Below, piece by piece: positions 2,683-7,755 of a DNA stretch of 7,755 bases (position 1 is its first letter; each line of letters begins with the position of its first letter). Where the stretch lies: positions 1 to 7,755 of the forward strand of contig JALSPN010000227.1 in the NCBI GenBank assembly GCA_026985945.1. Reading direction: 5' to 3'. Under the pieces are notes generated by a model. That model did not search any database, was not told where the DNA came from, and worked only from the letters and a program-made list of their open reading frames with translations. The DNA is from Thermodesulfobacteriales bacterium. Its GTDB lineage: Bacteria; Desulfobacterota; Thermodesulfobacteria; Thermodesulfobacteriales; Thermodesulfatatoraceae. The position numbers were made by a program, and so were the translations under genes.

Positions 2683-3588
<906 letters not shown>

Positions 3589-3618: not shown

Positions 3619-3936
3619 ATGAAGATGATCAAAGCTGTTATAAGACCGGAAAAGACGGAAGAGGTGGTGGAGGCCCTGGCGCAAGAGGGTTTTCTGGCCC
3701 TAACCAGGGTGGATGTAGTAGGGCGGGGAAAGCAGGGAGGCCTTTCGGTGGGAGAGGTGGTTTACGATGAGCTCCCCAAAAGTCTCCTTCTTCTGGTGGT
3801 TCAGGAAGAAGAGGTCGAGCGGGTCTGCAATACCATTATAGAGTCCGCCCGCACCGGGCGTTTCGGAGATGGCAAGATCTTTGTCTCGCCGGTGGAAGAG
3901 GTCTATACCATCCGCACCGGAAGGGCCGAACTCTAG
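3619..3936 (+). CDS. nifI1: NifI1, PII-family nitrogen regulator of nitrogenase
   Basis: This 105-residue PII-like protein, with NifI2, senses 2-oxoglutarate and ATP/ADP. In methanogens the pair blocks electron transfer to NifDK when ammonium appears. PII features are the N-terminal MKMIKAVIRPEK strand, GRGKQGG (35-41) leading into a shortened T-loop, and the C-terminal GDGKIFVSPVEEVYTIRTG signature (from 82). The uridylylated tyrosine context of GlnB/GlnK T-loops is missing, as usual for NifI. A strong AGGGAGG precedes the ATG. It lies between nifH and the structural genes, the normal nifI position, and only 10 bp before nifI2. Confidence 0.94.
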   Translation: MKMIKAVIRPEKTEEVVEALAQEGFLALTRVDVVGRGKQGGLSVGEVVYDELPKSLLLLVVQEEEVERVCNTIIESARTGRFGDGKIFVSPVEEVYTIRTGRAEL

Positions 3937-3946
3937 GAGGTGAATC

Positions 3947-4324
3947 ATGGCCTTAAAGGAGATCATAGCCATTGTGAGACCAAACAAAATGCTTGCCACT
4001 AAGAAGGCCCTGGATGAGATGGGATTCCCTTCCTTTACAGCCTTTAAAGTGCTTGGCCGGGGGAAACAGGGAGGCAGGCTTAAGGAACTTGCCTATAGGG
4101 TAAGCCCTGAAGTGGCCGAAAAGCTCGAGACCTCCTCTTACGGTTTCATACCTAAAAGGCTCCTTCTGGTGGTGGTGCCGGAGGCCATGGTCAAGAAGGT
4201 AGTGGAAAAGATTATTCAGGTAAACCAGAGCGGTGAGCACGGAGACGGCAAGATTTTTGTGCTCCCGACGACAGGGGTCGTCAGAGTCCGCACCGGTGAG
4301 GAGGGCCTTGAAGCCCTTTTCTAA
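3947..4324 (+). CDS. nifI2: NifI2, PII-family nitrogen regulator of nitrogenase
   Basis: This is the 125-residue partner of NifI1. The longer T-loop (about residues 44-71, with Y50 and Y65) is typical of NifI2 and is the part expected to contact the dinitrogenase. It begins after GRGKQGG (37-43), and the PII nucleotide-binding signature GDGKIFVLP starts at 99. The ribosome binding site AGGAGG overlaps the TAG stop of nifI1, so the two are probably translationally coupled and made in equal amounts. The frame ends with TAA, 17 bp before nifB. Confidence 0.94.
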   Translation: MALKEIIAIVRPNKMLATKKALDEMGFPSFTAFKVLGRGKQGGRLKELAYRVSPEVAEKLETSSYGFIPKRLLLVVVPEAMVKKVVEKIIQVNQSGEHGDGKIFVLPTTGVVRVRTGEEGLEALF

Positions 4325-4341: not shown

Positions 4342-5175
4342 ATGATCAGGCATCCATGTTTTGATGAAAAGGCTCATCGTGTCGTGGGAAGACTTCACCT
4401 TCCGGTAGCCCCGCGGTGCAATGTGCAGTGTGCCTATTGTGATCGACGATATCCGTGTGTGAATGAAAATCGGCCCGGGACCGCCTGCCGTTTAATCTCT
4501 CCTGAAGAGGCTCCAGAATATGTGGCGATGGCCCTTACGCTTGAACCTCGCATAGAGGTGATAGGAGTAGCCGGCCCGGGGGAACCGTTGGCTAATGAAG
4601 AAACATTTCAGGCACTTTCACGAGTGCGAGAGTCCTTTCCAGGACTCAGATTCTGCCTTTCTACCAATGGTCTCCTGCTCAAAGAAAGACTTCCGGATCT
4701 AATCTCTTTAGGAGTCCAGTTTCTTACCGTTACGGTTAACGCTGCCACTCTGGAGACGGCCTCCAAGTTCTACCTCTGGGTGCGTTACCAGGGGAAGAAG
4801 CTTACCGGAGAGGAGGCGGCGGAGGCACTTCTTTCTTCCCAGATGGAAGGTTTGAGAGCGGCTGCCAGGCTGGGCATCCGGGTCAAGGTCAACACCGTGC
4901 TCGTGCCGGGAATAAATGATGCGGAGGTAGGTGAGATTGCCCGCAGGGTCTGGGAGGCCGGGGCCCATCTCATGAACATCATCCCCCTCCTTCCTCTGGG
5001 GCGTTTTCACGGCCGGCGGCCACCTACAGAGATTGAGCTCAGCTGGGCCAGGAGGTTGGCCTCCCGTTTTATGCCTCAATTTCTCTCCTGTCGGCGCTGC
5101 CGGGCTGATGCCGCCGGTATTCCAGGGGAAGGTGATTCCTTACAGACGATTCTATGGGCAGCTACCAGCTCTTAA
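4342..5175 (+). CDS. nifB: NifB, radical SAM enzyme of nitrogenase cofactor synthesis (single-domain form)
   Basis: NifB fuses two [4Fe-4S] clusters and inserts carbide and sulfur to make NifB-co, the 8Fe core used by all nitrogenase cofactors. The 277-residue protein begins with the diagnostic HPCF (4-7), then GRLHLPVAPRC, and the radical-SAM motif C26-x3-C30-x2-C33. NENRPG lies at 41-46, the SAM-binding GPGEP at 78-82, and FCLSTNG around C105. The C-terminal C250-x2-C253 sits in CRRCRADAAG. C6, C105 and the CxxC are the kind of extra cysteines that hold the two substrate clusters. The C-terminal NifX-like domain of proteobacterial NifB is absent, so this is the short form common in archaea and anaerobes. 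AAGGAGG precedes the ATG. Its position between nifI2 and nifD is unusual. The stop is TAA. Confidence 0.96.
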   Translation: MIRHPCFDEKAHRVVGRLHLPVAPRCNVQCAYCDRRYPCVNENRPGTACRLISPEEAPEYVAMALTLEPRIEVIGVAGPGEPLANEETFQALSRVRESFPGLRFCLSTNGLLLKERLPDLISLGVQFLTVTVNAATLETASKFYLWVRYQGKKLTGEEAAEALLSSQMEGLRAAARLGIRVKVNTVLVPGINDAEVGEIARRVWEAGAHLMNIIPLLPLGRFHGRRPPTEIELSWARRLASRFMPQFLSCRRCRADAAGIPGEGDSLQTILWAATSS

Positions 5176-5198: not shown

Positions 5199-6629
5199 AT
5201 GGGTTACTATCAGATGAAATGTGATGCCTGTATTCCTGAAAGGGTAAAGCATGTTTGCATCGTGGATGAGGACAGGAAGACCATTCCCAGATGTAATGCT
5301 CCTACCGTCCCGGGTGATCTTACGGAGCGTGGCTGAGCCTTTGCCGGGGCCCGCGGGGTCGTGGGCGGACCAATTACGGATGTAATTCAAATGATACACG
5401 CCCCGGTAGGCTGCGGTTATTACACCTGGGGTACACGCCGTCACCTGGGAGACATATACAACTGGGCCGCCCCCGGAGTGCTTGAAAATGAGGCCAACCA
5501 CCGCCGCCACTGCTACACCACGGCCATGACCGAGCAAGATATCATTTTCGGAGGGGCGGAAAAACTGAAAAGAGCCCTCCTTGAGGCTTTTCGCATCAAT
5601 CCCGGGGCACAGGGAGCCATTATCTATAATACCTGCTCCACCGCCCTTATCGGGGATGACATCGAACAGGTGGCTCGAGAGGTGTCTGAAATAGTGGGCA
5701 AACCCGTTTTTGCCTGTGCCTCTCCGGGTTTTTGTGGAGTCTCTCAGTCTCGGGGGCACCACGAATTTAACACCCAGTTCTATCGCTGGCTTCTTAAGTA
5801 TCGTGAGAAACATCCAGAGGTATGTATGAAGGAAGAGGAGAAGACACCCTACGATGTCAATCTCATCGGTGATTACAACATTGACTGGGACCTGGTTACG
5901 GTAGAGCCGCTTTTTGAAAAGCTGGGGCTGCGGATTCTCAACGTCTTTACAGGTAATGGCCGTCTCAATGAGCTTTTAAGACTTCCAGATGCCAAACTGA
6001 ATATTGTTCACTGTCAACGTTCGGCTACCTACATCGCGGAACTTTTGAGAGAGGGCCATGAGATGCCTTTTGTCCGTGTAAGTCTTTTCGGAATTTCCCA
6101 GACTGCAAAGGCGCTTCGGGATGTAGCGTCCTGGTTCGGGGAAGAGAAGATGAAGCGTCGGGCCGAGGAAATTATCGAGGAGGAGACCGCGGCTGTAGAG
6201 AAGGCTCTTTCCTGGTATCGGGAGCGCCTTTCCGGAAAGCGGGTGGCCATTTACGTGGGGGCTCCACGGGTGTGGCACTGGCCAAAGGTGATGGAAGAAC
6301 TCGGAATGGAGGTAGTGGCTTGTATGACCACCTTTGGACACCAGGAGGACTACGAGAAGATTATCCAGCGCGTAAAACCCGGCACTCTCGTAATCGATAA
6401 TCCCAACGAATTCGAGATCGAGGAGATGATCGAGACCTGCAGGCCCGATCTTTTCCTCACCGGTCTCAAGGAGAAGTATCTCGTGCGCAAGTTCGGGGTG
6501 CCGACCCTCAATTCCCATTCTTACGAAGCCGGGCCGTATGCAGGTTTTCGCGGTTTTGTGAACTTCGCACGAGACATTTATCAGGCGGTTTGGGCCCCGG
6601 TATGGCGACTTGCCCGTTGCGAAATTTAA
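5199..6629 (+). CDS. nifD: nitrogenase alpha subunit NifD with an in-frame TGA at the first P-cluster ligand (probable selenoprotein, Sec46)
   Basis: This subunit carries the active-site cofactor and half of the P-cluster ligands. Reading through the TGA at 5334-5336 gives 476 residues. P-cluster positions are residue 46 (TGA; Azotobacter Cys62), C72 (Cys88) and C146 in NTCSTALIGDD (Cys154). Active-site residues are V54 (Val70), R80 (Arg96), Q183 and H187 in GVSQSRGHH (Gln191, His195), C272 in VHCQRS (Cys275), R357 in PRVWHW (Arg359) and H440 in NSHSYEAGPY (His442). Apart from the TGA nothing is broken. FTGNG (250-254) and PRxWHW are typical of V- and Fe-type subunits, while GLKEKY is more like Mo-type. 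AAGGAG lies 8 bp before ATG 5199. An in-frame ATG at 5154 is inside nifB and has no such site. Without recoding the product is a useless 45-residue peptide. Sec insertion is inferred from position and the adjacent hairpin; mutation or sequencing error is the alternative. Confidence 0.93.
5334..5336 (+). other. in-frame TGA, candidate selenocysteine codon (NifD residue 46)
   Basis: The codons around it read L-T-E-R-G-TGA-A-F-A-G-A-R-G-V-V, against the conserved R-G-C-A-Y-A-G of nitrogenase alpha subunits, so the TGA replaces a cysteine codon. It is the only in-frame TGA found in any gene here. The six complete genes end in TAA (3) or TAG (3), none in TGA. Selenocysteine at a conserved cysteine site is the usual arrangement in bacterial selenoproteins. 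Confidence 0.75.
5340..5373 (+). promoter_or_regulatory. candidate bacterial SECIS hairpin just after the TGA
   Basis: GCCCGC (5349-5354) pairs with GUGGGC (5361-5366) around the six-base loop GGGGUC (5355-5360), giving six pairs with one G-U. Below a GGG bulge the stem can continue with CC (5344-5345) pairing to GG (5367-5368), G5343 with C5370, and UU (5340-5341) with AA (5372-5373), with small irregularities. The loop starts 19 nt after the TGA and opens with GG, within the published bacterial SECIS pattern (short stem, loop roughly 16-37 nt downstream, G early in the loop). The loop contains GGUC, as does the E. coli fdhF SECIS loop. I folded it by eye; a competing 5-bp stem (5348-5352 with 5356-5360) also exists. 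Confidence 0.6.
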
Positions 6630-6649: not shown

Positions 6650-7755
6650 ATGATAAATCACGTATCAGAGATACCCATAGAAGGAATAACCTATAAACAG
6701 CTCCGCATAGAAAAGAAGCCTTTGACACCGGAATATGTTCCTCCACCTCCGGAGCTGGTGCCGGCAGCCAAACGCGCAGTTTGTATTGATCCCAGCCGCA
6801 CCTGTATGCCCTTCGGGGCCATGTGGGCTACGCTGGGGGTCCATCGGGCCATTCCCTTTGTGCAGGGGGCACAGGGTTGTACCACTTACGTGCGCTATAC
6901 TTTTTCCCGTGTCTTCCGTGAACCGGCCTCCATTGCTACGGCCTCCTTTCATGAAGATGCCGCGGTCTTCGGTGGCCGTAAGAATCTTGTTCGCGGAGTG
7001 CGGAACCTGGTCTGCCGCTATAAACCGGAGCTCATCGCTATCGTTACCACCTGTTCAAGTGAGGTTATCGGAGATGACATTCAGAGCTTTCTTGCTGAGG
7101 CCTTAGATATTATGGAGGAGGAATTCGGACCGGAGGTGCTTGATCTTACGAAGTTTGTGGTGGTAAATACTCCGAGCTTTGCCGGCTCCCACGTGGAGGG
7201 CTACAACCGTGCTGCCCAGGAATTCCTCAAGACCCTTTCACGCAGGAGCGGCCAGCCTTCCGAAGACCTATACTTTATCCCCGGATTTCTCATGCCCGGA
7301 GATTTGCGGGAATTAAAACATCTCTTCAATCTCATGGGGGTCTCCTACCATCTCCTTTTTGATATAAGTGCTACTCTTGATTGTCCACTGGTAGGTATGC
7401 CCAACAAGATCCCCTACTACCCTCCAGGAGGCAGCCGGGTAGAGGAGTTTGTGCGGGCTGGAGATGCGAAAGCTATTTTTGCCCTTTCGCCGGATGCCGG
7501 GGGAGCCGGTGCGAAATGGCTCTCCCGTCGTCACAAAGTGCCGGCCTTTGTTCTTCCTGTGCCCATAGGGGTAGGCAACACCGATCAGCTCCTCAAGACG
7601 CTAATAGAGGTCTCGGGGCGGTCCATTCCGGAGGCTATACGCTGGGAACGGGGTATCCTCCTTGACGCCATGGCCGATACCCTGCACTACACCATGATGA
7701 AGCGGGTAGCCATCTGTGGTGACTCGGATTTTGCGGCTGCGGCCACCCGCTTCGT
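6650..7755 (+). CDS. nifK: nitrogenase beta subunit NifK (3' end cut by window edge)
   Basis: This is the beta subunit of dinitrogenase, which shares the P-cluster with NifD. The 368 codons visible are open and run off the window, leaving about a quarter of the usual length unseen. All three beta P-cluster cysteines are present and encoded by TGT: C52 in RTCMPFGA (Azotobacter Cys70), C77 in GAQGCTTY (Cys95) and C135 in TTCSSEVIGDD (Cys153). S176 in NTPSFAGSH matches Ser188, which binds the oxidised P-cluster. FREP and EDAAVFGG (102-109) are further family landmarks. The N-terminus is shorter than in Azotobacter NifK and nearer the V/Fe-type beta subunits. The ATG follows GGGAGG with suitable spacing and lies 20 bp after nifD. 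That gap leaves no room for a delta-subunit (vnfG/anfG) gene in its usual place. Confidence 0.95.
   Translation, partial: MINHVSEIPIEGITYKQLRIEKKPLTPEYVPPPPELVPAAKRAVCIDPSRTCMPFGAMWATLGVHRAIPFVQGAQGCTTYVRYTFSRVFREPASIATASFHEDAAVFGGRKNLVRGVRNLVCRYKPELIAIVTTCSSEVIGDDIQSFLAEALDIMEEEFGPEVLDLTKFVVVNTPSFAGSHVEGYNRAAQEFLKTLSRRSGQPSEDLYFIPGFLMPGDLRELKHLFNLMGVSYHLLFDISATLDCPLVGMPNKIPYYPPGGSRVEEFVRAGDAKAIFALSPDAGGAGAKWLSRRHKVPAFVLPVPIGVGNTDQLLKTLIEVSGRSIPEAIRWERGILLDAMADTLHYTMMKRVAICGDSDFAAAATRF

Follow-up and report, generated by a model that had tools for sequence, protein, structure and literature searches.

The nifD gene of a Thermodesulfobacteriales bacterium (assembly GCA_026985945.1) contains an in-frame TGA at the position of the first P-cluster cysteine, which raises the question of whether this codon is read as selenocysteine (Sec). 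The analyzed window, 7,755 bp of contig JALSPN010000227.1, is a nif cluster with nifA-like and nifV-like genes on the minus strand and on the plus strand nifH, two PII-like genes, nifB, nifD, and the first part of nifK. The nifA-like activator gene (3–1421) is truncated by the window end and scored 490.6 bits against TIGR01817, below the cut-off of 528.85; the nifV-like homocitrate synthase (1446–2630) was likewise below its cut-off (TIGR02660, 317.7 versus 462.9 bits). The nitrogenase iron protein gene nifH (2755–3588; TIGR01287, 462.4 bits, cut-off 394.35) is followed by two regulators of the PII family at 3619–3936 (69.1 bits) and 3947–4324 (65.8 bits), both below the cut-off of 202, which we take to be nifI1 and nifI2 from their position. 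The nifB gene (4342–5175, 277 aa) encodes the radical-SAM part only (TIGR01290, 265.9 bits, below the cut-off of 343.65), covering positions 11–279 of the 441 in the model. The beta subunit gene nifK (6650–7755) is truncated by the window end; its ATG start at 6650, like the ATG of nifH at 2755, was picked to fit the Thermosulfurimonas dismutans-type locus. The original prediction described the genes flanking nifD as undamaged, and this holds for nifB, the two PII-like genes, and nifH, while nifK is cut by the right end of the window. No Rfam family matched the window at gathering scores.

The nifD gene (5199–6629, plus strand) encodes a nitrogenase component I alpha subunit of 476 residues if UGA is read through. 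Its frame starts with ATG at 5199, ends with TAA at 6627–6629, and is open for 476 codons except for a single internal stop, the TGA at 5334–5336 (codon 46), in the context ERG-[TGA]-AFAGARGVVGGP. In a HMMER alignment, residue 46 falls on the Cys of ERGC in 9spz_A, the nearest solved nitrogenase alpha chain, so the predicted assignment of the TGA to the first P-cluster cysteine is confirmed. The next P-cluster cysteine, C72, lies 26 residues past the TGA, as had been predicted; this spacing equals that of Cys62 and Cys88 in Azotobacter vinelandii NifD. The other NifD residues expected to be kept, C146, C272, and H440, are all there. Residue 46 of Group III NifD corresponds to alpha-62, a P-cluster ligand (Howard et al. 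2013, PMC3760896), and the codon is thus a predicted Sec codon at an alpha-Cys62-equivalent position. The dN/dS values against the two nearest relatives were 0.00–0.04 both in the 44 codons before the TGA and after it, showing strong purifying selection on both sides. AlphaFold2 modeling with a 12-row alignment gave a mean pLDDT of 40.6, too low for use.

The NifD protein exceeded the cut-offs of TIGR01862 (535.8 versus 486.05 bits) and TIGR01284 (533.6 versus 512.8 bits), scored under the cut-offs of the nifD, VNFD, and ANFD equivalog models, and was placed with Group III sequences in both trees. It is therefore assigned to Group III rather than to Nif-I/II, Vnf, or Anf, on the basis of model scores and tree placement.

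The same TGA recurs among relatives. In a set of 60 genomes (the genome of origin and its relatives), 12 had NifD proteins 77%–100% identical to that of the window; 11 of them carried TGA and one (G008) carried TGT, which establishes the TGA/Cys exchange at this column in close relatives. Each of these 11 genes had exactly one internal stop, the TGA at the residue-46 column. At least 10 Group III NifD genes (at least 7 TGA, at least 3 Cys) were found at ≥61% identity in 395 genomes of the phylum, at least 20 (at least 10 TGA, at least 10 Cys) at ≥60% identity in 113 genomes of the class of a Desulforudis MAG (G064), and 21 (6 TGA, 15 Cys) at ≥57% identity in 398 genomes of the phylum of Carboxydothermus islandicus (G072); the sets of 60, 395, 113, and 398 genomes overlap. 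An extra TAA listed for one gene (G070) is its own end. In the merged sets, among the matches listed, a Group III TGA gene was present in 24 genomes and a Cys (TGT or TGC) gene in 29, the 24 TGA genomes representing 23 distinct proteins after the TGA. Group labels in this survey and in that of beta-92 below were given by a short sequence motif that admits only Cys or stop at the site; 7 of the 99 loci surveyed had no NifD motif, and one locus (L056) was dropped as the same gene of the same genome as L147. By name, the TGA genes belong to Thermodesulfobacteriota (e.g., Thermosulfurimonas) and Bacillota (e.g., Desulfofundulus), and they include the assemblies of the named isolates Thermosulfurimonas dismutans S95, Thermodesulfatator autotrophicus S606, and Desulfofundulus thermosubterraneus DSM 16057. 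Chance is excluded because the TGA recurs at the same column, and a read error or decay of the gene (the latter also considered improbable in the original prediction) is very unlikely given the same TGA in 11 of the 12 close NifD genes.

A pattern scan of named GTDB contigs returned 17 stretches. Fourteen of these are NifD genes, three of them incomplete because the stretch ends within the gene; a further one holds a broken nifD, and the remaining two (L048 and L051) are chance matches. This count is a lower bound, since Thr, Pro, or AGY-encoded Ser following the TGA lay outside the pattern and L021, one of the 11 TGA genes then known, went undetected; the three species of Howard et al. were absent from the scan list under the name used. 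The broken gene (L050, minus strand, Desulfofundulus australicus DSM 11792) breaks off eight codons past the TGA, inside the hairpin described below, and continues into a frame that, read by eye, we take to be homocitrate-synthase-like. Among the matches listed, its genome (G067) had one NifD-like match, a weak one.

The genome of origin, 83.31% complete, encodes three components of the Sec machinery named in the original prediction, SelA (630 bits), SelB (395 bits), and tRNA-Sec (82.9 bits, also called by ARAGORN). Among 14 control genomes, SelA exceeded the cut-off in one, SelB in two, and tRNA-Sec in five (two at an E value of 1e-10), and a tRNA-Ser of the genome of origin also passed the tRNA-Sec cut-off. 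This cut-off is thus unspecific, and it is the high score, together with ARAGORN, that carries the tRNA-Sec call. Of 31 genome entries, 29 had a SelB over the cut-off, six of the entries being repeats as judged by identical hits, among the matches listed (exceptions G060 and G009), as did 23 of 24 entries of a further set (exception G060); tRNA-Sec was found at 1e-10 in 41 of 43 entries (exceptions G060 and G032). Relatives with SelB also include Cys forms of NifD. Sec is therefore not required for a nitrogenase there, and the presence of the machinery does not decide which form is used.

Downstream of the UGA, a hairpin was found that is predicted to be the upper part of a bacterial SECIS element. 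In the window it spans positions 5349–5366 of the plus strand (GCCCGCG-GGGU-CGUGGGC), starts 12 nt after the UGA, and has a predicted folding energy of −12.2 kcal/mol; the 7-bp stem carries a GGGU loop with G in the loop. Its 15-nt core, CGCGGGGTCGTGGGC, was exact in 23 of the 24 Group III TGA genes. The Group III Cys62 NifD genes, represented by G008, G125, and the solved 9spz, belong to the same family and differ in having a TGT or TGC codon and no exact core (0 of 29 genes, which show 22 distinct versions of this region). All seven stem pairs were possible in 21 of 24 TGA genes versus 2 of 29 Cys genes. Codons 52–57 were identical in 21 of 22 TGA genes, the exception being L108. With this gene set aside, six of the seven testable element codons were fully identical, versus 2 of 188 other codons for invariant residues; with all 22 TGA genes, the values were 2 of 6 versus 2 of 184, and the corresponding values for 14 Cys genes were 0 of 6 versus 1 of 160. 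Five Cys genes (L020, L120, L124, L143, and L144) were one base off the core and lay beside or among Sec genes in a 54-row tree, some forks of which are weakly supported, as expected from recent Sec loss.

When each gene is compared with synonymous recodings of itself, the Group III hairpin stands out only moderately. In a hand-picked subset of 20 Sec and 18 Cys genes, the fraction of recoded sequences that were as stable was 0.01–0.105 for all but one of the 16 Group III Sec genes examined, L106 being scored in a shifted form; the exception was L108, with 0.51. Similar fractions of 0.045–0.083 were reached by the Cys genes L109, L110, L120, and L124. The weight of the evidence for a predicted SECIS thus rests on invariance across genes. 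The exceptional locus L108/L179 (genome G530) has the TGA and no hairpin core, carries Asp where the others shown have Gly53, and is nested among Cys relatives; its TGA may represent a new gain, a different SECIS, decay, or an error.

We consider it highly probable that the nifD UGA at alpha-62, followed by a predicted SECIS, is read as Sec by SelB and tRNA-Sec, with a selenolate replacing one P-cluster thiolate. The observation made in the window is right, and its interpretation as Sec very probably so, being supported by the conserved TGA, the TGA/Cys exchange, the SECIS-type hairpin sequence, and the joint presence of SelA, SelB, and tRNA-Sec. Termination at the UGA would require a working NifD to start downstream, at GTG 5361, from which a 422-codon ORF is indeed open, with the upstream frame acting as a leader. 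Such a protein would be devoid of the N-terminal 54 residues and of one P-cluster ligand, but the 44 codons preceding the TGA evolve as coding sequence, with a dN/dS of 0.00–0.04 relative to the two nearest relatives, and their translation aligns with the N-termini of NifD proteins; in addition, Cys relatives read straight through, which makes this reading very improbable. A nonsense mutation or sequencing error in a gene meant to read Cys needs a change of only one base from TGC or TGT, and the gene of G530 may be such a case; for the window this is scarcely credible, as 24 genomes, named isolates among them, share the TGA in their Group III nifD and the exact hairpin core is restricted to TGA genes.

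Genome-wide reassignment of TGA to an amino acid would agree with the finding that none of the six window genes with a stop codon read ends in TGA. It is contradicted because TGA still ends ORFs, namely 27 of 71 non-overlapping ORFs of at least 150 aa in 89,780 bases of the genome and window (mechanical ORFs, not curated), and tRNA-Sec and SelB are present, so that the probability of reassignment is negligible. Finally, Sec could be inserted mainly for the control of expression, the early UGA tying NifD synthesis to selenium rather than tuning the cluster. This role was raised by Howard et al. (2013, PMC3760896) and fits the early location of the UGA in the message, at codon 46. A UGA serving regulation alone would not need to lie at the P-cluster ligand site, yet other TGA NifD lineages use the same one, and no second internal TGA occurs in Group III NifDs among the matches listed, the motif search having covered the residue-46 site; we regard this as an unlikely main role.

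Returning to decoding as Sec at a cluster ligand, the state of this site has changed often. The 54-row NifD tree implied at least nine Sec/Cys changes, with some forks weakly supported; non-Group III sequences were left out of it apart from three alternative nitrogenases, as were L115 and L116, which are identical to L114 over the columns kept. A close Sec/Cys pair is provided by G064 (Sec) and G514 (Cys). Next to the P-cluster, the beta-92-equivalent position of the window nifK, named after Howard et al. (2013) and located by motif matching (VQG-A-QGC), is Ala, encoded by GCA at 6869–6871. The Group III sequences with Ala92 form one clade (support 97/91), and all five sister Group III sequences with Ser92 are Cys forms. 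Ala92 was found in 24 of 24 Group III Sec genes in the beta-92 survey, so that within Group III, Sec is seen only on an Ala92 background. Among the 28 Cys Group III genes with a readable beta-92, Ala was present in 23 and Ser in 5. Strict pairing of Sec with beta-Ala92 was not upheld in view of these 23 Cys genes and of one Sec gene with Ser, and the larger set contradicts the statement of Howard et al. that beta-92 is Gly or Ser in every other sequence. As at most the 30 best matches of each search were fetched, the counts for other nitrogenases describe a selection: Ser in 22 of 22 readable Cys genes of the Nif-I/II type and Gly in 10 of 10 alternative nitrogenases.

TGA at the same NifD column was also found in Ca. 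Aquicultoria. Among 36 genomes of this class, that of G061 (Ca. Aquicultor), six had NifD-like matches, four of them with TGA; the other two, G080 and G085, had Cys at the site. The NifD of G060, G061, and G076 (L042, L043, and L061–L063), from Ca. Aquicultor and its kin, is of the standard MoFe type and accompanied by beta-Ala92; the G061 protein scored 784 bits against the nifD equivalog model (cut-off 653.55). A long NifEN-like gene of 899 codons lies downstream of nifD in G061. The fourth genome, G084 (L066/L177), encodes a second, different NifD (680 bits against the same model) with TGA at the same column and Ser at beta-92. Ala92 thus accompanies the TGA in two of three lineages. SelA, SelB, and tRNA-Sec were all present in G061, G076, and G084, while no SelA, over-cut-off SelB, or tRNA-Sec was found in the MAG of G060, which carries a TGA nifD; either this MAG is incomplete or Sec reading fails there. 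In a 52-row tree, subject to a long-branch warning at this point, the Aquicultoria TGA lineages were apart from Group III and from each other.

A simple scan for hairpins without bulges found none in the Sec genes of the G060/G061/G076 type. Folding of 40-nt segments gave a different hairpin, GCCUUCGC-GGGA-GCGAAAGGU, nearer to the UGA in all three genes, with some longer folds preferring other structures. Synonymous change was low at this hairpin (pS of 0.08 versus 0.31 further on, and 0.35 versus 0.78–0.85), which is only suggestive of a SECIS in the Aquicultoria genes. The 9-bp hairpin of G084 begins as far from the UGA as the Group III hairpin and does not discriminate, since its Cys relative L065 can form a similar one. 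The Aquicultoria genes point to a trait that extends beyond a single nitrogenase group. Nitrogenase has probably acquired Sec on at least three independent occasions, always at this P-cluster ligand, namely in Group III, in the standard MoFe type of Ca. Aquicultor and its kin, and in the clostridial type of G084. No report of Sec in NifD outside Group III was found in a literature search with most subscription journals outside its coverage.

The window contig (G000:C227) resembles the nif loci of the Thermosulfurimonas type more than those of the MAG's own genus. Its DNA is 89% identical to the nif loci of G021 and G018 (Thermosulfurimonas type), while the SelB of the MAG is closest to those of G005 (84%) and G003 (78%) versus 67% for G021 and 63% for G018. 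The only other NifD-like match of the genome of origin (37%) is on contig C33, which aligns with the segment of the T. dismutans-type locus that extends from nifE to the PII gene; in that locus (G021), as read from translations, a transporter-like gene and a PII-like gene come after nifE, with no nifN there. A plasmid search returned only relatives, all with less than 60% identity. Sequence comparison thus leaves two readings, in which either the nif cluster moved between families or the contig was mis-binned. The Sec conclusion is independent of binning because G018, G021, and other named relatives have SelB and tRNA-Sec.

Sec in NifD has been known since 2013, and the window represents a further member of that family. 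The original prediction held that no genetically encoded Sec had been described in nitrogenase; in fact, alpha-Sec62 was published for three Group III NifDs, those of Ca. Desulforudis audaxviator, Desulfotomaculum kuznetsovii, and Thermodesulfatator indicus (Howard et al. 2013, PMC3760896), on the same kinds of criteria as used here. Like those proteins, the window NifD is of the Group III type and combines a UGA codon at residue 46 (alpha-62) with beta-Ala92, a SECIS-type hairpin, and Sec genes. It comes from a further genome, on a contig of the Thermosulfurimonas type, and the codon, named as amber TAG by Howard et al. (2013), is opal TGA in the loci studied here. Unlike in that work, Ala92 was not exclusive to Sec in the larger set, and TGA was not limited to Group III.

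A 2026 review of the prokaryotic selenoproteome lists one GenBank-annotated example of nitrogenase component I alpha, WP_153802866.1, of the same family TIGR01862 with Sec in an R-x-U motif; in contrast to the present work, the entry comes without distribution or hairpin analysis in the available text (PMC13188914). The [NiFeSe] hydrogenases likewise use Sec in place of a Cys metal ligand in a metalloenzyme (PMC13188914), but there the ligand is on the catalytic Ni, whereas that of NifD would be on an electron-transfer Fe-S cluster. The genome paper of T. dismutans reports a complete set of nitrogen-fixation genes, and the word selenocysteine does not occur in its accessible part (PMC4911364). 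Nor is Sec in nitrogenase treated in the accessible parts of PMC5877335, PMC7463578, PMC11097638, PMC9919214, PMC6354398, PMC13111528, and PMC9012536. New here are a sharper definition of the SECIS, a wider distribution, the correction concerning beta-92, and candidate lineages in Aquicultoria.

In the proposed mechanism, the UGA at the alpha-62 Cys position is followed by a conserved sequence predicted to fold as a SECIS hairpin; the ribosome would insert Sec at the UGA via SelB and tRNA-Sec, and selenium would bind P-cluster iron, one thiolate being replaced by a selenolate. More speculatively, the selenolate may ease the reversal of oxidized states of the P-cluster or tune electron transfer in these anaerobes, and Ala instead of Ser at beta-92 may leave room for the larger atom. 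The original prediction proposed that Sec could alter the redox potential of the P-cluster and its behavior toward oxygen or heat. In model compounds, however, selenium as a terminal ligand hardly changes the redox potential according to Howard et al. (2013, PMC3760896), who also wrote that a role related to oxygen seems unlikely in strict anaerobes. The benefit may vary with the supply of selenium or with the habitat, as the repeated switching of Sec and Cys suggests.

The questions posed in 2013 are made testable by the set of 24 genomes, the hairpin core kept in 23 of them, the many Sec/Cys switches, and the close pairs. If the encoded selenium ligand is real, it would be a rare natural experiment on electron movement in nitrogenase, and selenium would make one position of the cluster accessible to spectroscopy (Se X-ray absorption). 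If the three entries are also true, alpha-62 would be a site at which selenium has been selected repeatedly, and the P-cluster would be a natural selenium probe.
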